NCBI RefSeq assembly: GCF_041320705.1
Contig: NZ_JBGGTQ010000011.1
Coordinates: 1-64,000 of the forward strand
Direction of reading: 5' to 3'
From: Kineococcus mangrovi
GTDB taxonomy: Bacteria > Actinomycetota > Actinomycetes > Actinomycetales > Kineococcaceae
Length of the DNA stretch: 64,000 nucleotides
Made by a program: the position numbers and the translations under genes. Numbering within the stretch: the stretch's first letter is position 1; each line of letters begins with the position of its first letter. Shown here piece by piece: positions 10,719 to 30,616 of the stretch. Under the pieces are notes generated by a model. That model was not told where the DNA came from, did not search any database, and saw nothing but the letters and a program-made list of their open reading frames with translations.

Positions 10719-15233
<4,515 letters not shown>

Positions 15234-15235
15234 TC

Positions 15236-16120
15236 GTGGCCGTCGACACGACCGCACCGCTGGTAGCCCCGGGCCACGGCTCGGGGCTGCTGGACGTCGT
15301 CCGCTACCGGTACCTGCTCAAGCTCCTCGTCCGCAAGGAGATGCGGGTCCGGTACCGCGGGTCCGTCATGGGCCTGCTCTGGTCGTACGTGAAGCCCGGC
15401 GTCCAGTTCGCCGTCTTCTACTTCGCGATGGGGGAGTTCCTCCGGCTCAACGAGTCCGTCCCGAACTTCGCGGTCTACCTGTTCTCCGGCATCGTCGTGA
15501 TCAACTTCTACACCGAGGCGTTCGGCAACGCGACGCGCTCGGTCGTGGGCAACGCACCGCTCATCAAGAAGATCTTCCTGCCGCGCGAGCTGTTCTCGGT
15601 GTCCTCGGCGTGGGTGGCCTCCATCCACTTCCTGCCCCAGCTCGTCGTGCTGCTCATCGCGTGCGTGGCGACGGGCTGGCGGCCGGGTCCGGTGCAGCTC
15701 CTCGGCGGGCTCCTCGGGTTCGTCATCGTCGGGGTCCTCGCGGTCGGGCTCGGGCTGCTGTTCGGGGCGATCAACGTCCTGTACCGCGACTTCGAGAACA
15801 TCGTCGACCTGCTGCTCATGGTCGTCACCTGGACCTCCCCGGTCCTGTACGACTGGCAGAAGGTCGCGGCCGCCGTGGGCGGTCCGGACTCGTGGTTCAT
15901 GACGCTGTACCAGCTCAACCCCGTGACCGCGGCCGTGGAGCTGTTCCACTGGGCGTTCTGGTACCCCACGGGCGGGGTGCGGGAGGCCGCCGTCCCGCCG
16001 CCGCTGCCGCCGCACCTGCTGTGGTCGGGGCTGTGGGGCCTGCTCATCGCCGTCGTGCTGCTCGCGGTGGGGCAGGTCGTGTTCCGCCGCATCGAAGGCC
16101 GTTTCGCCCAGGAGCTGTGA
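15236..16120 (+). CDS. wzm: Polysaccharide ABC exporter permease (Wzm)
   Basis: The protein has 294 residues and six helices of the ABC2 type. The amphipathic N-terminal segment LLKLLVRKEMRVRYRGSVMGLLWSYVKP is the classic Wzm/TagG start, and the C-terminal half has the conserved NVLYRDFENIVDLLLMVVTWTSPVLY. With the ATPase encoded next it forms the channel exporting a finished lipid-linked polysaccharide. Its position directly after glfT2 argues that the cargo is galactan, as proposed for Rv3783 in mycobacteria. It starts at a GTG two bases after the glfT2 stop. Confidence 0.9.
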   Translation: MAVDTTAPLVAPGHGSGLLDVVRYRYLLKLLVRKEMRVRYRGSVMGLLWSYVKPGVQFAVFYFAMGEFLRLNESVPNFAVYLFSGIVVINFYTEAFGNATRSVVGNAPLIKKIFLPRELFSVSSAWVASIHFLPQLVVLLIACVATGWRPGPVQLLGGLLGFVIVGVLAVGLGLLFGAINVLYRDFENIVDLLLMVVTWTSPVLYDWQKVAAAVGGPDSWFMTLYQLNPVTAAVELFHWAFWYPTGGVREAAVPPPLPPHLLWSGLWGLLIAVVLLAVGQVVFRRIEGRFAQEL

Positions 16121-16926
16121 TGAGCGTGACGATGTCGAACTCAGGATCGAACCCCGGGTCGAACCCCCACCCCGGCCGGGCCGGCGCCCCCGGGCCCGGT
16201 GCCCCCACCGCCATCGAGGTGCGCGGGCTGGTCAAGGACTTCACCCTGCGCCACAACCGCTCCCTCAAGGAGCTGGCGATGGCCAAGATCCGCAAGCGGC
16301 CCATCTCGGACAGCTTCCGCGCCCTGCACGGCGTCGACCTGACCGTCCACCAGGGCGAGTCGGTGGCGCTGCTCGGGTTCAACGGGTCGGGCAAGTCGAC
16401 CCTGCTCAAGCTGATCTCCGGCGTCATGCGCCCCGACGAGGGCACCGTGGGCGTCCGCGGCCGCATCGCCGGGCTCATCGAGGTCGGCGCGGGCTTCCAC
16501 CCCGACCTGACGGGCCGGGAGAACGTGTTCCTCAACGGCGCCATCCTCGGGATGGACGAGGCGACGATCACCGCGCGGTTCGACGACATCGTCGCCTTCA
16601 GCGAGATCGAGCGGTTCATCGACACCGAGGTGAAGTTCTACTCCTCGGGGATGTTCCTGCGGCTGGCGTTCGCCGTCGCCGTGCACACCGACCCCGAGGT
16701 CTTCCTCATCGACGAGATCCTCTCGGTGGGCGACGAGCCGTTCCAGAAGAAGTGCCTGGCCCGCATCGAGGAGCTGCGCGCCGAGGGACGCACCCTCGTC
16801 ATCGTCAGCCACGACCTCGACATGGTCGCGGACCTGTGCACGCGCGGGATCCTGCTGGAGCAGGGCCGCGTCGTGGCCGACGACACCGCCGAGCGGGTCG
16901 TCGCCCGGATGCGGGGGCAGGGGTGA
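16120..16926 (+). CDS. wzt: Polysaccharide ABC exporter ATPase (Wzt)
   Basis: The protein has 268 residues. A low-complexity Gly/Pro/Asn head (1-30) precedes the ATPase. The family-typical pre-Walker segment FTLRHNRSLKELAMAKIRKR is followed by Walker A GFNGSGKST, GAGFHPDLTGRENVFLNG, a degenerate signature YSSGMFLRLAFAVA, Walker B VFLIDEILSVGD and the H-loop VSHDLDMV. There is no C-terminal carbohydrate-binding extension, so the transporter is of the type that exports without chain-cap recognition, like TagH or Rv3781. The ATG overlaps the permease stop by one base (TGATG). Confidence 0.9.
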   Translation: MSVTMSNSGSNPGSNPHPGRAGAPGPGAPTAIEVRGLVKDFTLRHNRSLKELAMAKIRKRPISDSFRALHGVDLTVHQGESVALLGFNGSGKSTLLKLISGVMRPDEGTVGVRGRIAGLIEVGAGFHPDLTGRENVFLNGAILGMDEATITARFDDIVAFSEIERFIDTEVKFYSSGMFLRLAFAVAVHTDPEVFLIDEILSVGDEPFQKKCLARIEELRAEGRTLVIVSHDLDMVADLCTRGILLEQGRVVADDTAERVVARMRGQG

Positions 16927-18479: not shown

Positions 18480-19006
18480 ACGCAGTGGAACGGGTGGCCG
18501 CGCTGGACCTGCGGGTCCTGCGGGCCGTCCAGGAGAAGGTCGCCCTCCCCGGCGCCGTGCCCGTGGCGAGGGGGCTCTCGCACGCCGGTGAGCACGCCGC
18601 CGCGTGGATCGGGATCGGCGCGGCGGGGTTCTGGTGGGACCGCCGTCGCCGCCGCGAGTGGGCCGTCGCCACGACCGCGGTCGTCGCCGCGCACGGCGCC
18701 TCCGTCGTCCTCAAGCGCGTCGCGCGCCGGCACCGCCCGCTGGACCACCACGTCCAGGTCCGCGTCGGGACGCCGAGCCGGTGGAGCATGCCGAGCTCGC
18801 ACGCCACGTCGACGACGGCCGCCGCCATCGCGTTCGCACCGCTGCTGCCCGTCCCCACCTGGCCGCTCGTGCCCGCGATGCTGGCCTCCCGGCTCGTCCT
18901 GGGCGTGCACTACCCCAGCGACGTCACCGCCGGTGCGGCGCTCGGCGCGGCGACGACCGTCGTGGTCCGCCGGGTCGCCGCCGGTCTCGCGGAGCGGTCC
19001 GGGTGA
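18476..19006 (+). CDS. PAP2-family lipid phosphatase, probable decaprenylphosphoryl-5-phosphoribose phosphatase
   Basis: The protein has 176 residues and five or six helices. All three motifs of the acid phosphatase superfamily are present: KRVARRHRP (KX6RP), the PSSHAT box (PSGH variant), and SRLVLGVHYPSD (SRX5HX3D), including both catalytic histidines. In mycobacteria the homologue next to ubiA (Rv3807c) is the candidate that removes the 5-phosphate of decaprenylphosphoryl-phosphoribose before epimerisation. Placement immediately before the UbiA gene with a four-base overlap supports this. The long alternative reading from 18410 has no support. Confidence 0.82.
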   Translation: MNAVERVAALDLRVLRAVQEKVALPGAVPVARGLSHAGEHAAAWIGIGAAGFWWDRRRRREWAVATTAVVAAHGASVVLKRVARRHRPLDHHVQVRVGTPSRWSMPSSHATSTTAAAIAFAPLLPVPTWPLVPAMLASRLVLGVHYPSDVTAGAALGAATTVVVRRVAAGLAERSG

Positions 19007-19893
19007 GCGTGACCGGGACGTCCCCCTCCGTCCTGCCCGGGTGGTTGCGGGCGATGCGCCCGCGGCAGTGGGTCAAGAACGTCCTCGTCCTGGCGCCGGT
19101 GTTCCCGGCCGGGGAGCAGGTCGGGCTCGACACCCTCACCGGCGTCGGCGTGGCCTTCGTGCTGTTCTGCCTCGTCTCCAGCGCCGTGTACCTCGTCAAC
19201 GACGCCAAGGACGTCGAGGCCGACCGCGCCCACCCGCGCAAGCGGTTCCGGCCCATCGCCGCGGGCGAGCTGTCGGCCCGCACGGCCGTCGTCCTGGCCG
19301 CCGCCCTGGCGGTCGTCAGCCTCACCGGGGGCCTGCTCTGGCAGCCGATGCTCGGCGTCGTCCTCGCCGTCTACCTCGCGATCCAGCTCGCGTACTGCTT
19401 CGGCGTCAAGCACGAACCCGTCCTGGAACTGGCCTGCGTCGCCTCCGGGTTCCTGCTGCGGATGCTCGCCGGGGGGACCGCGGGGGACATCCCGCTGTCG
19501 GGGTGGTTCCTGCTGACGACGGCGTTCGGGTCGCTGTTCATGGCGGCCGGCAAGCGCTACGGCGAGGCGCGCCGCGGTGAGCTCACGGGCGAACCCGTGC
19601 GCCGCGTCGTGCAGCGGTACACGACGACCTACCTGCGGTTCGTGTGGACGCTGGCCGCGACCGTCGTCGTCACCACGTACGCGCTGTGGGCCGTGGAGGT
19701 CCTCGTGCCGCAGTCGGGCACGCAGCTCGCGACGCTGACGGTGGTGCCGTTCATCCTCGCCGTCCTGCGGTACGCGGTCGACGTCGACAGGGGCGCCGCC
19801 GAGGAACCCGAGGAGATCGCGCTGCACGACAAGGTGCTCCTCGTGCTGGCCCTGGCCTGGTGCGGGTCGCTGCTGCTGGCGGTGTGGCTGTGA
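19003..19893 (+). CDS. ubiA: Decaprenyl-phosphate phosphoribosyltransferase (UbiA family)
   Basis: The protein has 296 residues and nine helices of the UbiA prenyltransferase fold. The first aspartate-rich motif is NDAKDVEADR, preceded by the typical MRPRQWVKNVLVLAPVF opening; the second conserved region is AAGKRYGEARRGE. In mycobacteria Rv3806c transfers 5-phosphoribose from PRPP to decaprenyl phosphate, the first step to the arabinose donor DPA. The MRPRQWVKN start and the Arg/Lys-rich loop AHPRKRFRPIAAG are diagnostic of this subgroup rather than of quinone-pathway UbiA. It is coupled to the PAP2 and GtrA genes by four-base overlaps. Confidence 0.9.
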   Translation: MSVTGTSPSVLPGWLRAMRPRQWVKNVLVLAPVFPAGEQVGLDTLTGVGVAFVLFCLVSSAVYLVNDAKDVEADRAHPRKRFRPIAAGELSARTAVVLAAALAVVSLTGGLLWQPMLGVVLAVYLAIQLAYCFGVKHEPVLELACVASGFLLRMLAGGTAGDIPLSGWFLLTTAFGSLFMAAGKRYGEARRGELTGEPVRRVVQRYTTTYLRFVWTLAATVVVTTYALWAVEVLVPQSGTQLATLTVVPFILAVLRYAVDVDRGAAEEPEEIALHDKVLLVLALAWCGSLLLAVWL

Positions 19894-20324: not shown

Positions 20325-21459
20325 CCGCCGGACCTGGCTGCCCGCCGCGGCGGGCGCCGCGCTGGCGGTGGTCCTCGTCCTGTCCGGGCTCGGGCAGGAG
20401 GCGTGGCAGCGCGGGTACGACCTGGCGGTCTACCGCGACGGGGCCCGCGACCTGCTCGCCGGCCGGGACCTGTACCTGCGCGAGACGTACCGCGGGCACT
20501 GGTTCGTCTACCCGCCGTTCGCGGCCGTGCTGTTCCTGCCGCTGCTCCTGCTGCCGCCCGCGGCCGACCTCCTCGTGTGGGACGCCGTGCTGCTCGCCGT
20601 CACGGCGTGGGCGTGCCGGAAGGTGTTCGGGTCGGTGGCGGCGGGGTGGTTCGTCGGCCTGGGGACCGCGGTCGTCCTGGTGAGCGACCCGTTCCGCGAG
20701 GCGCTCGTCCTGGGGCAGGTCAGCCCCCTGGTCGTCGTGGGTCTCGTCGTCGGCTGCCTGTACGGCGGTCGCGGGGGAGCGGTGCTCGCCGGGTTGTCGG
20801 GGGCGGTGAAGGTGACGCCCGCGCTCGTCGTCGTCGCGTTCGTCAACCGGCGCGCCCGCTGGTGGTTCGCCTCGGCCGTCGCCGTCGTGGGCCTGGCCGC
20901 CACCGGCGTCGGGGTGCTCGTGGCGCCGGGCTCGGCGGTCTCCTACTTCGGCTCGCTCGTGTGGGACTCCGCGCGCGTCGCGGCACCGGGGACCACGACG
21001 AACAACTCCCTCGCCGGGGCGTTCGCGCACGCCGGGCTGTCCTCGGCGGTGAGTTCGGCCCTCGGGCTGGTCCTGGCCGTCCCGCTGCTCGTGCTCGTCG
21101 TCGTGGTCGCGCTGCGCGCGGACTGGCTGGAACGGTCCGACCGGTTGCGGTTCGGTCTGCTCGTCTCGCTCGTGACGTGCCTGGTCTCGCCCGTGACGTG
21201 GTCCCACCACGCCCTCGCCGCCCCGATCGCGGCCGTCGCGCTGCTGGCGTGGGGGCGGGTGCGCTGGCTGGTGGTGCTCGCCGGGGTCCCGTGGCTGCTG
21301 CCGGTGCTGCACTGGGGCGCGCTCGCCGCGCAGACGCGGCCGGTCTCGCTCCTCGTCCTCGTCGCCCTCCTCGCCCTCACGCCGGGCGGCCCTGCGCGTG
21401 GACGTCCCGCACCGCCCGCAGCCACCGCTCCCGCTGCCGCACCACCTGCTCCCAGCTGA
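20317..21459 (+). CDS. GT87 (DUF2029) polyprenyl-phosphate-dependent glycosyltransferase
   Basis: The protein has 380 residues and about ten helices. The first extracytoplasmic loop AWQRGYDLAVYRDGARDLLAGRDLY holds the catalytic Asp of the PimE/AftC-like GT87 family. WFVYPPFAAVLFLPL, LGQVSPLVVVGLVVG, AVKVTPALVVV and TNNSLAGAF are all family signatures. It transfers a mannose- or arabinose-type sugar from a decaprenyl donor outside the membrane. It ends the long operon. The last 27 residues (Pro/Ala-rich) are encoded antisense to the decayed gene at 21377-21921, suggesting the reading frame was extended when that gene shrank. It overlaps the GtrA gene by eight bases. Confidence 0.85.
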   Translation: MPDRRTWLPAAAGAALAVVLVLSGLGQEAWQRGYDLAVYRDGARDLLAGRDLYLRETYRGHWFVYPPFAAVLFLPLLLLPPAADLLVWDAVLLAVTAWACRKVFGSVAAGWFVGLGTAVVLVSDPFREALVLGQVSPLVVVGLVVGCLYGGRGGAVLAGLSGAVKVTPALVVVAFVNRRARWWFASAVAVVGLAATGVGVLVAPGSAVSYFGSLVWDSARVAAPGTTTNNSLAGAFAHAGLSSAVSSALGLVLAVPLLVLVVVVALRADWLERSDRLRFGLLVSLVTCLVSPVTWSHHALAAPIAAVALLAWGRVRWLVVLAGVPWLLPVLHWGALAAQTRPVSLLVLVALLALTPGGPARGRPAPPAATAPAAAPPAPS

Positions 21460-22089: not shown

Positions 22090-24096
22090 TCAGACGCGGG
22101 CGACCTTGCCGGTCGTGGAGCTGAAGCTCAGCGTCCCGCCCTGGAACGTCTGGGTGAGCGTCGAGCCGTTCCACACCTCGTCACCGGTGGGCATCCCGAG
22201 GGAGCCGTTCTCCCAGCCCTGCGCGGCCCACGCGTCGTAGACGGCGCCGCGGACGGCATGGGCGCCGGTGGTGGGGCCCCAGTAGATCGACCCGCCCTGG
22301 AACCGGTTGAACCAGCCGCGGCCGCCGGCCAGGGCGGTGTCGCCGGTCACGGGGAAGCCGAGACCGTTCTCCCAGCCGAGCCGGGCCCAGGCGTCGCGGA
22401 TGGCTCCGCGGGTGAAGTGCGCCCCCGTGGCGGGGGACCAGTAGACGGAGCCGCCCTGGAAGTGGGTGAACCACCCCCGGCCGTCGGGCGTGGGGGCGTC
22501 GGAGGTGGTCGGGAAGCCGAGGCCGCCCTCCCAGCCCAGCCGGGCCCACTCGCTGCGGATGGCGCCGCGGACGGCGTGCGCCCCCGTCGCGGGGGACCAG
22601 TAGACCGACCCGCCCTCGAAGTGGTTGTAGTACCCGCCGCCGCGGGGGGTGCGGGTGTCGCCGGTGGTCGGGAAGCCGAGGCCGCCCTCCCAGCCCAGCC
22701 GGGCCCACTCGCTGCGGATCGCGCCCCGCACGTCGTACGCGCCGGCCGCGGAGGCGTAGATCGAACCGCCGGCGAAGTGCTGGTAGGACCCGAGGCCGTT
22801 CGGCGTCGCCAGTTCGGTGCTCGTGGCCCCGCCGAGGGGACCGGACGCGCCGCCGAGGGCGCCGTAGCGCTGCTGCACGGCGCTGACGATCGAGAACCAG
22901 TCCGAGCGCAGGCCGCCGAGCTGACGGATCCGGGTCCCGGTCAGGGTCGCGGTGCCGTTCGTGCACAGCAGCTTCGCCGAGGTGACGCGGCCGCCGTAGT
23001 CGCCGCGGCCGTCACGGGCGGTGATGACGAGGCCGGTGGCCGTCCCGGCGTTCCCGCACCCGGCGTCGAAGTTCTTCGCCGGGACGGTGGCGGACCAGTC
23101 CGCGACGCTGGCCCCGGCGGCCGCGCCCGGGCCGGAGAACGGGTCGGCGCGGGCGGTGAGGTACGGCTTGGACCCCGCGACGGTCCAGCCCCCGTTGGAG
23201 GAGGAGAACTGGGTGAAGGCGACCTTGCCGCCGTAGGTGCGGATCTCCCCGGCCGTGGCGGCGATCGCCGCGTTCGTCGAGGACGGGGTGGTCCAGGTGG
23301 TGGCACCGGTGCGGTCGCGCAGTTCGGCCCCCCGGTACACCTGGCAGGCGGTGGTGTCGCAGATGTCGGTCTGGGACTGCGGGTTCAGGACGGACATGGC
23401 GTAGCTGCGCGCGGCGACCGCCTGCGCCTGGAGGGCCTCGGGGTGGAAGGACGCCGGGGACTCGGCCGGGACGACACCACGCAGGTACGTCTCCAGCGGC
23501 ACGTCGTTGACGACGGTCAGCTTCGAGCCGGTGACGATGCGGATGGTGCCGTCGTAGCGGACGAAGGTCCCGTCGCCCTTCTGCAGCAGGACGCCGTCGG
23601 GACCGCTGACGGTGACCGTGCCGCCCCAGTTCTGCCGCCGGACCTCGGACCCGTCGGACGCGGTGACGGTGGCGGCCAGGCCGTTCCCGGCGGGGGCGAC
23701 GACCAGACGTTCACCGGGCCCGAGCTTCTCGGCGCTGGAGGACAGCGTGAGCTGCGCGCCGGTGGGGGCGGACACGGCGACGGCGGCGTTGGCGAAGGCG
23801 GTGAGGCCGACGCGCAGGGTGCGGTCGGGCTGGTCCCCCACGGACGTGCCGGGGTAGTAGAAGTCGAGGATCGCCCGGTGGGACTGCCCGGACAGGGCGC
23901 GCGACTGCGCCCCCCACTGCGACATGCCGATGCCGTGGCCGTAGCCGTGGCCGACGAACGCGAAGCTGCCCCCGACGGCCGGGCGGACCTCGTCGGCGTG
24001 CGCGGGCAGCGTCGTGAGGGTCGTCAGGGTCCCCGTGGTGAGGGCGACGGCCGTGGCCGCCAGGGCTCGGGTGAGGCGACGGGTTCGGGTGCGCAC
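22090..24096 (-). CDS. Secreted SpoIID/LytB-domain protein with LGFP repeats
   Basis: The protein has 668 residues. A signal peptide (1-34, ending PAHA) precedes a SpoIID/LytB region with GHGYGHGIGMSQWGAQSRAL near 50 and VPLETYLRGVVPAESPASFH around 197; downstream is AVAARSYAM. The C-terminal 260 residues hold five LGFP (PF08310) repeats of about 53 residues, e.g. GSVYWSPATGAHAVRGAIR, ARLGWEGGLGFPTT. SpoIID is a lytic transglycosylase acting on peptide-stripped glycan in sporulating Firmicutes; here the amidase two genes upstream would provide such stripped strands. LGFP modules are taken to bind the wall polymer. It starts 17 bases after the preceding gene, in one operon. Confidence 0.85.
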   Translation of the reverse strand: MRTRTRRLTRALAATAVALTTGTLTTLTTLPAHADEVRPAVGGSFAFVGHGYGHGIGMSQWGAQSRALSGQSHRAILDFYYPGTSVGDQPDRTLRVGLTAFANAAVAVSAPTGAQLTLSSSAEKLGPGERLVVAPAGNGLAATVTASDGSEVRRQNWGGTVTVSGPDGVLLQKGDGTFVRYDGTIRIVTGSKLTVVNDVPLETYLRGVVPAESPASFHPEALQAQAVAARSYAMSVLNPQSQTDICDTTACQVYRGAELRDRTGATTWTTPSSTNAAIAATAGEIRTYGGKVAFTQFSSSNGGWTVAGSKPYLTARADPFSGPGAAAGASVADWSATVPAKNFDAGCGNAGTATGLVITARDGRGDYGGRVTSAKLLCTNGTATLTGTRIRQLGGLRSDWFSIVSAVQQRYGALGGASGPLGGATSTELATPNGLGSYQHFAGGSIYASAAGAYDVRGAIRSEWARLGWEGGLGFPTTGDTRTPRGGGYYNHFEGGSVYWSPATGAHAVRGAIRSEWARLGWEGGLGFPTTSDAPTPDGRGWFTHFQGGSVYWSPATGAHFTRGAIRDAWARLGWENGLGFPVTGDTALAGGRGWFNRFQGGSIYWGPTTGAHAVRGAVYDAWAAQGWENGSLGMPTGDEVWNGSTLTQTFQGGTLSFSSTTGKVARV
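22504..22719. repeat. 57-base exact direct repeat inside LGFP coding region
   Basis: Bases 22504-22560 and 22663-22719 are identical, 159 bases (53 codons, one LGFP module) apart. They encode the RSEWARLGWEGGLGFPTT stretch of two adjacent modules. Close relatives of the segment recur at about 24290 and in the amidase gene. Recombination between copies would add or remove exactly one repeat in frame. Confidence 0.85.
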
Positions 24097-24113
24097 GGGG
24101 TTCCTCCTGCGGT

Positions 24114-25355
24114 TCAGTTGCCGGTGTAGCTGGTGGACGTGGTGCGCCGGGCGGCGTCCCAGGTGATCGAGCCGCCCTGGAACTCGACGCGCAGACCACC
24201 GGGGACGGGACGCTCGTCGCCGGTGGGGAACCCGAGGCGGCCGTTCTCCCAGCCCTGCCGCGCCCAGGCGTCGCGCAGGGCGCCGCGGACGGCGTGCGCC
24301 CCCGTCGCGGGGGACCAGTAGACCGAGCCGCCCTCGAAGTGGGTGTAGTAGCCGGCCTCGCCCGGGGTGCGGGTGTCGCCGCTGACGGGGAACCCGATGC
24401 CGTTCTCCCAGCCGAGCCGGGCCCAGTGGTCGCGGATCGCGCCCCGCACCTCGAAGGACCCGGTGGCGGGGGAGGAGTAGATCGAGCCGAACTGGAAGTG
24501 GTTGTACGCCCCGGGACGGCGGGGGGTGCGCAGTTCGTCGGTCAACGGGACACCCAGGGTGCCGACCCCGCCGATCTTCTCGAACCGGGCGCGGATGCCG
24601 CCGTGCACCTCACGGACGGGGGTCGTGGGGGAGGAGTAGACGGTGCCGTGGCGGTAGTCCTTGCGGGCCACCCCACCGGCGGCGGTGGTGCGCCGGCCGC
24701 CGACGTCGGCGCCGAGGACGGACCGTTCGGCGCCCAGGGCGATCCAGTGCCCGTGCAGGGGGTCGGTGGTCCCCGTCCACCAGGACGTCTCGCGGGCGGC
24801 GCCGGAGAACGTCAGCGAGAGGTGGACGTGGTTCGTGTGCGGGTCGGCTCCGGTGTACGGCTGCCAGCCCGCGCCCGCCTGGTACGTCTTCCACACCTGC
24901 TGGTTCCAGATGACGTACATGACGCCGAGGCGGCGGGCGTTGGCGGCGACGTTCCCCCGCTCGTCGGTCGCGAGCAACCAGGTGAGGAACTCCCCGGCGA
25001 GCGCGGCCTGGGTGGGGTCGCTCGCCTCGAGCATCCAGTCGACGGCCCGGCCGTCGGAGTGCTCGGAGACGGGGACGCCGTTCGCCGGGCACGCCCGGGC
25101 CAGGCCCAGCGTCTGGCGGCCGTACGCGTCGCGGATGAGCTGGGCGAGCGCGAGGGTCCCGGGCTGCGGTGGTGCGCAGGTGATCGGAGCCTGGTAGCGG
25201 GGGAAGGCGTCGACGTCCGCGGGGAGACCGCCGGGGACGCGGGGGGCGGCCTGCGCGGGCAGGCCGGTGGCGAGCAGGCCCCCGGCCAGCAGCGCGGCGA
25301 ACCCCGCCCGCAGCGCCGCCCGCGACCCGGCCCGCCGCGACCGTCGGCGCCTCAC
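24114..25355 (-). CDS. Secreted M15-like peptidase domain protein with LGFP repeats
   Basis: The protein has 413 residues. A very basic signal peptide (1-36, ending LPAQA) leads to a domain of about 160 residues with CPANGVPVSEHSDGRAVDWM and DPHTNHVHLSLTF. This H-x-x-GRAxD ... HxNHVHLS layout matches the ARB_07466/VldE-like zinc fold related to M15 D-Ala-D-Ala peptidases. Three to four LGFP repeats follow (YNHFQFGSIYSSPATGSFEV, ARLGWENGIGFPVSGD, ARQGWENGRLGFPTGDE). Cleavage of stem peptides outside the membrane is likely but not proven. The GTG start is one base from the amidase stop. Confidence 0.8.
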   Translation of the reverse strand: MRRRRSRRAGSRAALRAGFAALLAGGLLATGLPAQAAPRVPGGLPADVDAFPRYQAPITCAPPQPGTLALAQLIRDAYGRQTLGLARACPANGVPVSEHSDGRAVDWMLEASDPTQAALAGEFLTWLLATDERGNVAANARRLGVMYVIWNQQVWKTYQAGAGWQPYTGADPHTNHVHLSLTFSGAARETSWWTGTTDPLHGHWIALGAERSVLGADVGGRRTTAAGGVARKDYRHGTVYSSPTTPVREVHGGIRARFEKIGGVGTLGVPLTDELRTPRRPGAYNHFQFGSIYSSPATGSFEVRGAIRDHWARLGWENGIGFPVSGDTRTPGEAGYYTHFEGGSVYWSPATGAHAVRGALRDAWARQGWENGRLGFPTGDERPVPGGLRVEFQGGSITWDAARRTTSTSYTGN

Positions 25356-25356
25356 G

Positions 25357-27363
25357 TCACTTCTTCTTCACGGTGAACTTGTTCGTGGACCGCGTCCACG
25401 TGAGGGTGCCGCCCTCGAACTCCAGGCGGGTGCCGCCGTCGACGGACACCTCGTCCTTGGTCGGGAACCCCAGGAAGGAGTTCTCCCAGCCCAGGGAGGC
25501 CCACGTGTCGCGGAAACCGCCGCTGACCGCGTGCGCCCCGGTCGCCGGCGACCAGTACACCGACCCCTTCTGGAAGTGGTTGTAGTACCCCTTGCCGTTC
25601 GGGGTGCGGGTGTCGTCGGTGGTCGGGAAACCCAGCCCGTTCTCCCAGCCCAGGGCGGCCCAGCGGTCCCGGATCGCGCCGGTCGTCCAGCGCGCCCCGG
25701 TGGCGGCGGAGTAGTAGATCGAGCCGCCCTGGAAGTGGGTGTACCAGCCGCCCCTGACGGACTCGTCGCCCGTGACCGGGAAACCGGCGGGGCCGCCCTC
25801 CCAGCCCATGGACGCCCACTTCTGCCGGATGGCGCCGCGGACCTCGCGGGCCCCGGTGGCCGGGGACCAGTAGATCGACCCGTTCTCGAAGTGGTTGTAG
25901 AACCCGCCCTTGGCGGGGGAGTCGTCGGTCGTGGGGAACCCCAGGCCCGTCTCCCAGCCGAGCTGGCCCCAGCGCTGCAGGATCGCTCCGCGGACGGTGT
26001 GCGCGCCGGTGGCCTTGGACCAGTAGATCGCGCCGCCGGAGTAGAACCGGTAGGACCCGCCGCCGCCCGGGACGTCGTTCTCGGGGGTCGTGGGGCCGCC
26101 CAGCGCACCGGCTCCGCCGACGGCGTCGTACTTGGCGGCGATGGCGGTGATGGAGGCCCCGCCGAGGAGCTGGGCGACGCGGTCGCGGATCCAGCCCATC
26201 TTCGTGAACCCGACGTTGCCCGGGCACGCGGTGAACCCGACGTCGCGGTGGGCGTTGATGGTGCGCAGCTTGGCGGTGGTGCCGCGCGCGTAGCGGGCGG
26301 TGCCGCCGCCGGCGGAGGTGAGGTAGGTGGTGCCGTCGGCGGGCACGCCGTACATCGACAGCTTCCAGGCGATGACCTGCGCGACGGACTCCAGGCACGC
26401 GGAGCTGGGGGCGGCCGAGGTGAAGTCGCCCATCATCGAGACGCCGAAGGTGTCGACGTTGAAGCCACCGGCGTGGGCGCCGACGACGGCCTTGGTGATG
26501 CCGCCGGCGCGGCCCTCCCAGATCCCGCCGAAGCGGTCGACGACGAAGTTGTACCCGAGGTCGGCCCAGCCCAGGGAGACCGTGTGGTAGCGGTACATGC
26601 CGCGGATGACCGACGGCACCTCGGCCTGGCTGTAGGTGCCGCCGTCGGCGGTGTGGTGGACCACGACGGCCTTGATGGTGTCGCTGTAGCCGGCCCCGCC
26701 CTTGCGCAGGGACTCGTCGGCGCCCCACTGGGCGCGGGTCCTGACGGTCGGCTGCGGCAGGACCTTGGGGGAGGCCTTGGTGGCGAGCGTGTCGGCCCCG
26801 CCGGGTGCCTCGGCGGGGCTCGACAGCGTCGTGCGGGCCAGGGCGGAGGACTCCCCGGCGTCGACGAGCTGGAGGTGGGCGTCGGCGACGTCGACCTTCG
26901 GCAGCCGGACCTGGACGGTCGCGCCGGTGCCCAGGGCGCCGACCCACAGGGGGTCCGAGGCGGTGACCGAGCGGCGGCCCTCGGCGGTGTCGGGGTCGGG
27001 TTCGGAGTCGTTCAGGGGCAGGTCGCTCCAGGCGGTCCACGTCCCGCCGGCCGTCCGGGTGCGGACGGAGATCGTGTCGGTGGAGGCCCCCGAGGGGAAC
27101 GTGACGCCGACCATGTGGCCGCCGTCCACCTCGACGCCGACGACGGTCAGGCCGGAGCCGGCGCCGGCCTCGCTGGACAGCAGGGCGGCCGAGCGCTGGG
27201 CACCGAGGGGGAAGGCGCGGGTGGAGCCGCCGACCTGGAGGGCGGCGGGGGTCAGGGCGCTGGCCGAGCCGGCGCCGGCGGCGAGGGAGGCACCGAGGAC
27301 GCCGGTGCCGACGGCCCCGGTCAGCAGGGCGCGGCGGGACAGGGGGGTCTGGACGGACCGCAT
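25357..27363 (-). CDS. Tat-exported N-acetylmuramoyl-L-alanine amidase with LGFP repeats
   Basis: The protein has 668 residues. A twin-arginine signal (SRRALL at 9-14, cut near ASA) precedes a beta-rich region, then a PGRP/Amidase_2 domain at about 209-390. The domain has RAQWGADESL, VVVHHTADGG (first zinc His), YNFVVDRFGGIWEGR, and INAHRDVGFTACPGN (second His and Cys ligand). Five LGFP repeats close the protein. It would cut the muramoyl-alanine bond of peptidoglycan. M. tuberculosis Rv3811, next to glf and glfT2, has the same PGRP-LGFP layout, so the neighbourhood is conserved. ATG 27363 has AGAGAGGAA upstream; the longer reading to 27456 breaks the Tat signal. Confidence 0.9.
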   Translation of the reverse strand: MRSVQTPLSRRALLTGAVGTGVLGASLAAGAGSASALTPAALQVGGSTRAFPLGAQRSAALLSSEAGAGSGLTVVGVEVDGGHMVGVTFPSGASTDTISVRTRTAGGTWTAWSDLPLNDSEPDPDTAEGRRSVTASDPLWVGALGTGATVQVRLPKVDVADAHLQLVDAGESSALARTTLSSPAEAPGGADTLATKASPKVLPQPTVRTRAQWGADESLRKGGAGYSDTIKAVVVHHTADGGTYSQAEVPSVIRGMYRYHTVSLGWADLGYNFVVDRFGGIWEGRAGGITKAVVGAHAGGFNVDTFGVSMMGDFTSAAPSSACLESVAQVIAWKLSMYGVPADGTTYLTSAGGGTARYARGTTAKLRTINAHRDVGFTACPGNVGFTKMGWIRDRVAQLLGGASITAIAAKYDAVGGAGALGGPTTPENDVPGGGGSYRFYSGGAIYWSKATGAHTVRGAILQRWGQLGWETGLGFPTTDDSPAKGGFYNHFENGSIYWSPATGAREVRGAIRQKWASMGWEGGPAGFPVTGDESVRGGWYTHFQGGSIYYSAATGARWTTGAIRDRWAALGWENGLGFPTTDDTRTPNGKGYYNHFQKGSVYWSPATGAHAVSGGFRDTWASLGWENSFLGFPTKDEVSVDGGTRLEFEGGTLTWTRSTNKFTVKKK

Positions 27364-27848: not shown

Positions 27849-29132
27849 TCAGCGGGCGCGCACCACCCCGAGCTGCGACCCGCCGAACCCGGGGAAGATC
27901 GTCTGCAGCGACCCGGCCCCGCAGCGCTTCTGCAGCACCTCGCCGATGACGGCGCGGTAGTCCGTGGTCCCGGCCAGGTCGCCGTCGACGAGGCGGTCCG
28001 CGCCCAGGCCCGGCCACGCGCCGTGCACCCGGCCGCCCACGACCCCGCCCCCGAGCAGCAGGACCGCGTTGCCGTGGCCGTGGTCCAGACCCCCCGAGGC
28101 GTTCTCCTCCACGCGGCGGCCGAACTCCGACAGCGTCACCAGCGTCGTCGAGCCGAACGCCGGCCCCAGGTCGGTCGCGAACGCCGCCAGCGCCGAGGAC
28201 AGCTCGGTCAGCTTGTCCCGCATCCAGCCGCCGTCGACGCGTCCCAGCCCCGCGTGCATGTCCCAGTCGCCGTAGTCCAGGGCGATGACCTGCACGGGCG
28301 CCCCGGACTTCTTCAGCAGCGCCGCCTGCGCCAGCGCGCGCCCGAGGTCGGAACCGGGGTAGGCGGCGCCGTTCGCCGGCCCGGCCCCCGTCCCCGGCAG
28401 CTTCGCGACGTCCTCCATCGCCCTCAGCAGGGTGTTCGCGGGAGCCGCGACCTCCGGGCGGGCACCGGTGTGCATGCGGCGCAGCGCGGCGTGCCACGTC
28501 GGGCGGTCGTCGCCGGGGCCGATGAGGCTGAACCCCTCCAGGGACGTCGTGGTCGTCTCCTGCGCCGGCCCGGCGAACGAGCGCGGCGGCTGGTTCGAGA
28601 TGCCCACCGCGTTCAGGACCGACCCCGTGCCGAGCGAGCCGATCGTCCGGTCGATCCAGCCGGTGCGCACCGAGCTGCCCGGCGCCGCCGTCTCCATCTG
28701 CTCCATGGCGGCGAAGTGCGACCGCGTCGGGTCCGACTGCCCCACGGCGTGCACGACGCCGAACGTCCCGCTCTTCCAGAACGGCACGAGGGGGGCCATC
28801 GCCGGGTGCAGCCCGAACATCTGGTCCAGGCCCAGCAGGGTCGAGCGGGGGACCGCGATGGTGGGCCGCGCCGCGTAGTAGGCGCCGTCCCCACCGGGCA
28901 CGACGGCGGACAGCCCGTCGAAGCCGCCGTGCAGGCTGAGGACGACGAGGGTCTCCCCGTTCCACCCGGGGGCGGCGAAGGACACCTGCGTCGAGACGTC
29001 GCCGACGGCGTACGTCGTGACACCGGCGGCGGCGGCCGCCAGGGCCGTGCGCAGGACGGAGCGGCGCGAGAGGAGGCGGGAGCCCTCCTCGCAGCCGCAG
29101 TGCGGGTCGTTCCGGGTGCCGGCGGTGCTCAC
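27849..29132 (-). CDS. DUF1501 family Tat-exported protein
   Basis: The protein has 427 residues. After a short head with two cysteines (PHCGCEEG) comes a twin-arginine signal SRRSVLRTALAAAAAGVTT at about 22-40. The DUF1501 core shows LVVLSLHGGFDGLSAVVPGG, the substrate-side DPTRSHFAAMEQ, YGDWDMHAGLG, LVTLSEFGRRVEENASGGLDHGHGNAVLLLGGGV and the C-terminal DYRAVIGEVLQKR. The fold is alkaline phosphatase/sulfatase-like, with His/Asp metal ligands in SLHGG and DHGHGN; no substrate is established. It is encoded eight bases after the DUF1800 gene, a pairing seen across many bacteria. GTG 29132 has GAGGAG upstream. Confidence 0.85.
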   Translation of the reverse strand: MSTAGTRNDPHCGCEEGSRLLSRRSVLRTALAAAAAGVTTYAVGDVSTQVSFAAPGWNGETLVVLSLHGGFDGLSAVVPGGDGAYYAARPTIAVPRSTLLGLDQMFGLHPAMAPLVPFWKSGTFGVVHAVGQSDPTRSHFAAMEQMETAAPGSSVRTGWIDRTIGSLGTGSVLNAVGISNQPPRSFAGPAQETTTTSLEGFSLIGPGDDRPTWHAALRRMHTGARPEVAAPANTLLRAMEDVAKLPGTGAGPANGAAYPGSDLGRALAQAALLKKSGAPVQVIALDYGDWDMHAGLGRVDGGWMRDKLTELSSALAAFATDLGPAFGSTTLVTLSEFGRRVEENASGGLDHGHGNAVLLLGGGVVGGRVHGAWPGLGADRLVDGDLAGTTDYRAVIGEVLQKRCGAGSLQTIFPGFGGSQLGVVRAR

Positions 29133-29140
29133 GGGACTCC

Positions 29141-30616
29141 TCAGCGGATCGTGAAGGACGGGGTGTCGAGGGTCAGGGCGACGAGGTAGCGCAGGTTGTC
29201 CCGCACCCACCGGTCCCCGGCCGAGCAGGGCGAGCCCTCCGACCGGCCGGCGTAGAGCAGGAGCCCGGCCTTCTCGTCGGCGGTCAGCCGGCTGCCGGTG
29301 ATCCGCACGCCCAGGGCGTCGACGAGGCCGCCGAACGTGGGGGGGATGCTCGCCAGCAGCTGCAGGGCGGGGGTGAAGCGCAGCTCCGGCGGGTACCAGC
29401 CCGCGGCGAAGTCCATGTGCCGGTTCCAGCGCGCGAGCGTCCCGCTGGGCGAGGTCCACGCGGCGGCGACGTCGGGGTAGCCGTTGGGGGCGGGCCACGC
29501 CATCGGCGCGTGCCCCTGGTCCAGCACGTGCCAGTAGATCTTGGTGATCCCGCCGACGCCGCCGGTCTCCATGCCGGTGCCCAGCGTGCGCAGCGTCGCG
29601 ACGTAGTCCTCCTGCGGGGTGCGGACCTTCTGCCCCGCCGAGGCCCAGAAGTGGGGGGAGTCGAACATTGTCCGCAGGACCGGGACGACCTGACCGCCCG
29701 TCTGGACCCAGGTGCGGGCCATCGCGTCCAGCAGCGCGGCGGGCGGGGTGTCGGAGACGAAGCGGGTCGCGAGCTTGCCGCACAGGCGGCGGGCCGTGAC
29801 GGGGTGGACGGCCAGCCAGCGCAGGTAGGCGTCGATCCACCCGTCGCCGTCGGCGGCCGAGTGCGGCGGGACGGTGAAGCCGTAGACCGTCCGGCCGCCG
29901 CCGTCGTGCCGGCCCGCCTCGTAGACGCCCCCGCCGTCGCGACCGACGGTCAGGCCCGTCAGCAGCCGCGCGGAGCCCTTCACGTCGGCCTCGGAGTACC
30001 CGGACTCCACGCCCAGGGTGTGCAGCTCGAGCAGCTCGCGGCCGTAGTTCTCGTTGGGCCGGGCCGCGGTCGAGCTCGCGTTGTCGAGGTAGGTGAGCAT
30101 CGCGGGGTGCCGGGCCGAGGCCACGAGCATGTCGCCGAAGGTGCCGAGGGCGTGGCGGCGGACGACGTTCCGGTCGTAGTCCTGGCGGCTCGCCCAGACC
30201 TCCGAGCTCGGGTTCGTGACGTGCAGGACGTTGTTCCAGACGTCGACGACGACCTCGAACAGCTGCCGGGTGCTCCAGATCTGCCGGGCCAGCGTGAGGC
30301 GGCCCGTCTCGAACATGGCGTTCCACTCCGTCGCGGCGTAGCCGCCGGCCCACAGGTCCTGGGCCGAGCGGCCGTAGAACCGCATGCGGCCCGCGAAGGC
30401 GTCGACCGCCCCGTCGTCCAGCGCCGCGGGGTCCAGCTGCCGGTCCAGCCAGGCCGCCGTCCCGAGGCGGGCCACCTCGGCGAGGGAGTCCGGGGTCGGC
30501 CCCCACGTCGCCCGCCGCAGCAGGTGCAGCTGGTCGGCCGGGGCCTCGTGCGCGAACGGGGCGGGCGCCGCCCGCCGGCGGCCGCGGGGGATGAGGGGCG
30601 AGGTGGGCACGGCCAC
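29141..30616 (-). CDS. DUF1800 family protein
   Basis: The protein has 491 residues and is mostly helical. DUF1800 (PF08811) signatures are HLLRRATWGPTPDSLAEVARLG at the start, VDVWNNVLHV, the DNASSTAARPNENYGRELLELHTLGV block with its NENYxRELxELHTLG motif, and QEDYVATLRTLG near the C-terminus. The function is unknown; the gene is usually paired with DUF1501, as here, and a joint role in processing an exported polymer or protein has been suggested only from co-occurrence. No signal peptide is visible. GTG 30616 is the start that precedes the conserved region most closely; GTG 30610 is also possible. Confidence 0.82.
   Translation of the reverse strand: MAVPTSPLIPRGRRRAAPAPFAHEAPADQLHLLRRATWGPTPDSLAEVARLGTAAWLDRQLDPAALDDGAVDAFAGRMRFYGRSAQDLWAGGYAATEWNAMFETGRLTLARQIWSTRQLFEVVVDVWNNVLHVTNPSSEVWASRQDYDRNVVRRHALGTFGDMLVASARHPAMLTYLDNASSTAARPNENYGRELLELHTLGVESGYSEADVKGSARLLTGLTVGRDGGGVYEAGRHDGGGRTVYGFTVPPHSAADGDGWIDAYLRWLAVHPVTARRLCGKLATRFVSDTPPAALLDAMARTWVQTGGQVVPVLRTMFDSPHFWASAGQKVRTPQEDYVATLRTLGTGMETGGVGGITKIYWHVLDQGHAPMAWPAPNGYPDVAAAWTSPSGTLARWNRHMDFAAGWYPPELRFTPALQLLASIPPTFGGLVDALGVRITGSRLTADEKAGLLLYAGRSEGSPCSAGDRWVRDNLRYLVALTLDTPSFTIR

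Follow-up and report, generated by a model that had tools for sequence, protein, structure and literature searches.

Three secreted LGFP-repeat wall enzymes encoded in a likely operon near the galactan genes of Kineococcus mangrovi

Analysis of a window of 64,000 nucleotides from Kineococcus mangrovi (contig NZ_JBGGTQ010000011.1) revealed three tightly spaced genes on the minus strand, from 27363 to 22090, each encoding a product with 4-6 C-terminal LGFP repeats (Table 1). They probably form one transcription unit for three secreted enzymes that cut peptidoglycan and stay attached to the wall through LGFP, the ligand of which would be the peptidoglycan-polymer complex in general, and neither mycolate nor AftA-primed arabinan. 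The amidase would strip stem peptides, the VldE/M15-like zinc enzyme would cut within or trim peptides and the SpoIID transglycosylase would then cut the denuded glycan, all three being kept on the wall by the common LGFP stalk, which may bind peptidoglycan itself or an attached polymer. The domain types are known ones; the novelty lies in the LGFP cassette, its conserved locus and an exchange of SpoIID for GH43 within the genus, for which no prior description was found in the literature searched.

Table 1. Features of the cassette and of the neighbouring galactan genes in the window
Feature	Position	Strand	Evidence
Tat-type PGRP N-acetylmuramoyl-L-alanine amidase with C-terminal LGFP, Ami3/Rv3811 relative	25357..27363	-	Amidase_2 and LGFP matches
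VldE/M15-like zinc hydrolase with a signal peptide and 4 LGFP repeats	24114..25355	-	invariant zinc-site residues, catalytic-domain model
SpoIID/LytB-type lytic transglycosylase with a signal peptide and LGFP repeats	22090..24096	-	SpoIID and TIGR02669 matches
glf, UDP-galactopyranose mutase	12040..13227	+	PF03275 271 bits; TIGR00031 316 bits
glfT2-like galactofuranosyltransferase	13221..15233	+	PF19320 (GlfT2_domain3) 169 bits; PF17994 (Glft2_N) 99 bits
ABC polysaccharide export pair, Wzm/Wzt-like	15230..16926	+	ORF positions and translations; kept next to glfT2 across the genus
Decaprenyl-phosphate phosphoribosyltransferase (DPPR synthase), arabinose-donor pathway	18997..19893	+	NF008978 420 bits, cut-off 207

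Open reading frames and profile matches bore out the three tandem wall-enzyme genes with LGFP ends described by the initial annotation, as well as their position beside a galactan operon, since glf, glfT2 and DPPR synthase were all recognised by their profiles. 'Beside' has here the sense of a convergent arrangement, the cassette being separated by 0.6 kb from a GT87 gene ending at 21459, the last one on the plus strand, and by 7 kb from glfT2. Gaps of only 1 and 17 bp within the cassette make an operon, presumably with shared regulation, likely; good ribosome sites precede its first and third genes. LGFP (PF08310), a repeat of about 53 residues, was matched in all three proteins at 191-304 bits for a cut-off of 22. 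A DUF1501-DUF1800 pair (27849-30616) lies on the same strand immediately upstream, and a secreted CWB2 protein (cell wall binding repeat 2, PF04122, 142 bits) is encoded at 255-1394, near the polysaccharide cluster.

The amidase (668 residues, ATG start with AGAGAGGA as ribosome site) carries a twin-arginine export signal, LSRRALLTG, and scored 59 bits for Amidase_2 (PF01510) and 304 bits for LGFP. Its sequence matched PGRP structures as well as the LGFP structures of MytA (6sx4/6swz), and the zinc ligands HH236-237, H372 and C380 were invariant in an alignment with 6 diverse relatives. It thus combines the Amidase_2 fold and His-His/His/Cys zinc site of Ami3-type PGRP amidases with their C-terminal LGFP and glf/glfT2 linkage, at 7 kb and convergently here, adjacently in mycobacteria. 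Ami3 itself (Rv3811 / MSMEG_6406) is a PGRP amidase with C-terminal LGFP lying beside glf-glfT2-DPPR synthase; in mycobacteria it is divergent from glf, single and mostly endowed with one strong LGFP repeat, whereas the Kineococcus gene is convergent, encodes 5-6 repeats and is followed by two more LGFP enzymes. The parallel with Rv3811 drawn earlier was therefore well founded, the amidase family being the same and being linked to glf/glfT2 at 40 of 80 named loci. These linked loci all belonged to mycobacteria or rhodococci, save loosely labelled metagenome bins, and the family tracks the species tree among named genomes. One contig labelled as an Acidobacteria MAG (L180) bears a mycobacterial-type glf-glfT2-DPPR-amidase block, falls inside mycobacteria in the tree and was probably mis-binned. 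A second LGFP amidase was observed about 5-8 kb off the cassette in 3 genomes of the genus (G218, G225 and G221; loci L184/L185, L186/L187 and L192).

The second enzyme (413 residues, signal peptide, four LGFP repeats totalling 191 bits) had no catalytic family match in Pfam or NCBIfam. The residues H69-x2-G-R-A-x-D76 ... H143-x2-H146-x-H148 (mature numbering) were invariant among 33 relatives. In the full-length model the LGFP part was of low confidence and Foldseek matches were mostly MytA and propeller noise, so only the catalytic-domain model (pLDDT 94) was used. Its best PDB matches were the pneumococcal VldE structures 9fln/9flj (E 3e-7 to 2e-6, TM 0.77-0.79 of target), VldE being a zinc-binding hydrolase, while the resemblance to LdcB was weak. 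The initial designation as an M15-like peptidase was refined. The enzyme has H-x6-D ... H zinc ligands in an M15/Hedgehog-like fold, but membership of Peptidase M15 was rejected: curated Pfam and NCBIfam M15 profiles gave no match, and the enzyme was consequently filed as VldE-like. It shares the fold and the H/D/H zinc-site residues with the C-terminal domain of S. pneumoniae VldE (9flh-9fln), from which it differs by a low identity (22%) and by a wall-binding part made of LGFP instead of LysM.

The third protein (668 residues, signal peptide) scored 98 bits for SpoIID, 179 bits for TIGR02669 and 294 bits for LGFP. Alignment to 4rwr showed that the catalytic Glu (VVPAE/VVASE) and GHGxGMSQ of the SpoIID/LytB type are both kept, in swapped order. 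The motif GHGxGMSQWGA is N-terminal in this SpoIID domain and C-terminal in SpoIID 4rwr/5i1t, an apparent circular permutation.

Since catalytic or zinc residues are kept in all three proteins, all three look active, and an operon that combines SpoIID with a PGRP amidase and a zinc enzyme acting on peptides fits a sequential cutting. SpoIID of C. difficile requires prior amidase action on glycan (PMC6221140). The cassette is reminiscent of the SpoIIP-SpoIID engulfment machine, in which an amidase and a SpoIID transglycosylase are likewise expected to act in that order. Nevertheless, the amidase here is of PGRP type and not SpoIIP, the proteins are secreted with LGFP tails, no SpoIIM was seen and the GHGxGMSQ motif stands N-terminally, the order being swapped relative to 4rwr. 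Beyond Kineococcus, the amidase adjoins SpoIID in 10 loci: Kribbella contributes six (6/6), Rhodococcus two, and a Frankiaceae MAG and a Geodermatophilaceae genome one each. As LGFP is missing from the majority of the SpoIID proteins at these loci, the pairing is independent of the tail, and its recurrence in several families supports a sequential cutting of peptidoglycan. The proposal that the amidase acts before SpoIID is therefore plausible from the residues present and the conserved pairing.

Within the genus, the VldE-like and SpoIID genes were found in the same order and all with LGFP in 8 of 11 genomes. The accompanying amidase was complete in 7 of these and truncated by a contig end in the remaining one (G226); glf, glfT2 and DPPR synthase had the same convergent arrangement in 6 of the 8, the contig ending after DPPR synthase in the other two. 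Such recurrence makes the neighbourhood of cassette and galactan genes more than a chance event, and its maintenance suggests that the enzymes are used in coordination with the building or shedding of polymer-carrying peptidoglycan. It is worth noting that linkage within a single genus does not amount to many independent events. In K. xinjiangensis, the nearest named relative of the host, and in G217, the amidase, VldE-like and GH43-LGFP genes adjoin Emb/AftA, the gene order being somewhat different in G217. GH43-LGFP here replaces SpoIID-LGFP as the third cassette gene (L104 13210-15078 and L196 10093-12600) and its product is a candidate furanosidase for self-arabinogalactan. Among the 11 genomes AftA was present only in these two and in G219, in which aftA is closely preceded by an LGFP gene. 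The SpoIID/GH43 split may represent a single evolutionary event. A tentative explanation, less likely than not, is that LGFP hydrolase cassettes are remodelling kits matched to the wall polymer: next to the amidase and the VldE-like enzyme, genomes without AftA would keep SpoIID, at the galactan operon, and AftA/Emb genomes a GH43 furanosidase, at the arabinan locus. Polymer-fitted cutters would thus be delivered by the LGFP tail.

All three enzymes being secreted hydrolases, and LGFP being also used by phage endolysins (PMC3314691), the cassette could conceivably serve to attack other bacteria or to scavenge nutrients instead of remodelling the cell's own wall. This appears very improbable given the wall-synthesis genes of the host alongside throughout the genus and an amidase family that follows the species tree. 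Moreover, mycobacterial Ami3 is an endogenous amidase held down by HtrA, whose overproduction inhibits growth (PMC12735335), as would be expected of autolysin-like behaviour. The absence of a visible phenotype upon ami3 deletion in M. smegmatis (PMC12735335), on the other side, counts against the reading preferred here.

The host genome (G000), 99.9% complete, contains GlfT2 and DPPR synthase as components of a mycobacterial-type arabinogalactan apparatus, and no match was obtained in it for AftA_C, AftA_N or Arabino_trans_C. DPPR synthase is thus retained despite missing AftA and Emb. Kineococcus aurantiacus has been described with arabinogalactan, according to a title cited in PMC2587704. 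The best host match for Pks13 reached 87 bits for a cut-off of 2100, compared with 2583-2831 in four mycolate-family genomes. Together with a study of K. rubinsiae that did not detect mycolic acids (PMC7472656), this supports the absence of mycolate synthesis, which the initial annotation had set as a condition of its ligand argument. The same genome holds 29 LGFP repeats despite lacking AftA and Emb. Mycolate and AftA/Emb arabinan were both ruled out as required LGFP ligands, the former by the missing Pks13 and the latter by the missing AftA and Emb.

The initial annotation further proposed that LGFP anchors the enzymes to arabinogalactan. In its strict form, LGFP would specifically bind (arabino)galactan and the enzymes would act only on galactan-bearing peptidoglycan. 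The glf/glfT2 linkage in 8 of 11 genomes of the Kineococcus group, and in mycobacteria and rhodococci, could indeed mean a galactan-specific role, as could GH43-LGFP beside aftA/emb and the related amidase that another member of the order (G081) encodes some 4 kb away from glfT2. The distribution of LGFP was surveyed among 217 genomes of the class, the counts being per genome and not independent events. LGFP was present in 71 and GlfT2_domain3 in 44; DPPR synthase was above cut-off in 68, and strong AftA and Emb were restricted to the mycolate family, with its 16 members. When this family was included, the presence of LGFP was associated with that of GlfT2 (P=0.001), but the association was lost upon its exclusion (8/47/20/126, OR 1.07, P=1), which rules out LGFP as a marker of GlfT2-type galactan outside the mycolate family. 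DPPR synthase, standing for arabinose-donor synthesis, was likewise ruled out as a correlate (14/41/38/108, OR 0.97, P=1). GlfT2 occurred without LGFP in 20 genomes; conversely, 47 of the 71 LGFP genomes had no GlfT2_domain3 match and 34 lacked both GlfT2 and DPPR synthase, although these are gene-level scores and no proof of galactan absence, since genomes without GlfT2 may make galactan with other enzymes. LGFP was also matched in the archaeon Methanosarcina acetivorans. A wide occurrence of LGFP in taxa without galactan genes, named beforehand as evidence against arabinogalactan anchoring, was thus largely observed at the gene level. Mycolate, AftA-type arabinan and GlfT2-type galactan each appear dispensable for LGFP retention, and the presence of LGFP in many bacteria without a galactan gene makes galactan unlikely as the only target. 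We accordingly regard the galactan-specific reading as unlikely; the survey speaks more for peptidoglycan, or for a variety of polymers attached to it, than for galactan by itself, and the simplest ligand is peptidoglycan or a polymer attached to it.

The repeats of the cassette align to those of known structure (6sx4, 6swz) in the C. glutamicum mycoloyltransferase MytA (PS1), which bears five motifs of the same family in a C-terminal stalk (27% identity in the fold match). The enzymatic portion of MytA, a mycolyl esterase, would be senseless in a mycolate-free cell. According to the description in PMC11299179 of pull-down and mutant data by Dietrich (2020), the LGFP part of MytA binds peptidoglycan-arabinogalactan, so that the question becomes which part of this complex is bound. 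As far as that description goes, mycolate was no longer an open candidate, and the narrowing of the ligand anticipated by the initial annotation does not stand in its original form, being weakened by the survey and partly pre-empted by the MytA report. In the host, LGFP is also joined to GDSL lipase, Excalibur and CAP domains (L067 6958-8772; L068 6661-7785; L069 6574-8052), so that the tail serves many surface proteins. It might be argued from such diverse partners, which also include esterase, NlpC/P60, GH25, GH43, GSDH/PKD and FG-GAP domains, and from its archaeal occurrence, that LGFP is a general stalk, spacer or protein-protein module with no fixed polysaccharide ligand. The described MytA binding data and the conservation of YWSPxTGA in most repeats are at odds with this idea, which we judge less likely still than galactan specificity.

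A wall-bound set of cutters recognising the peptidoglycan-polymer complex thus remains the preferred reading. The locus physically links wall-cutting enzymes with wall-polymer synthesis, and the survey is a warning that LGFP should not serve as an arabinogalactan marker. Kineococcus mangrovi offers a mycolate-free and apparently AftA/Emb-free system for a clean test of the LGFP ligand, and the SpoIID/GH43 exchange between sister species provides natural pairs for studying how peptidoglycan carrying a covalent furanose polymer is cut.
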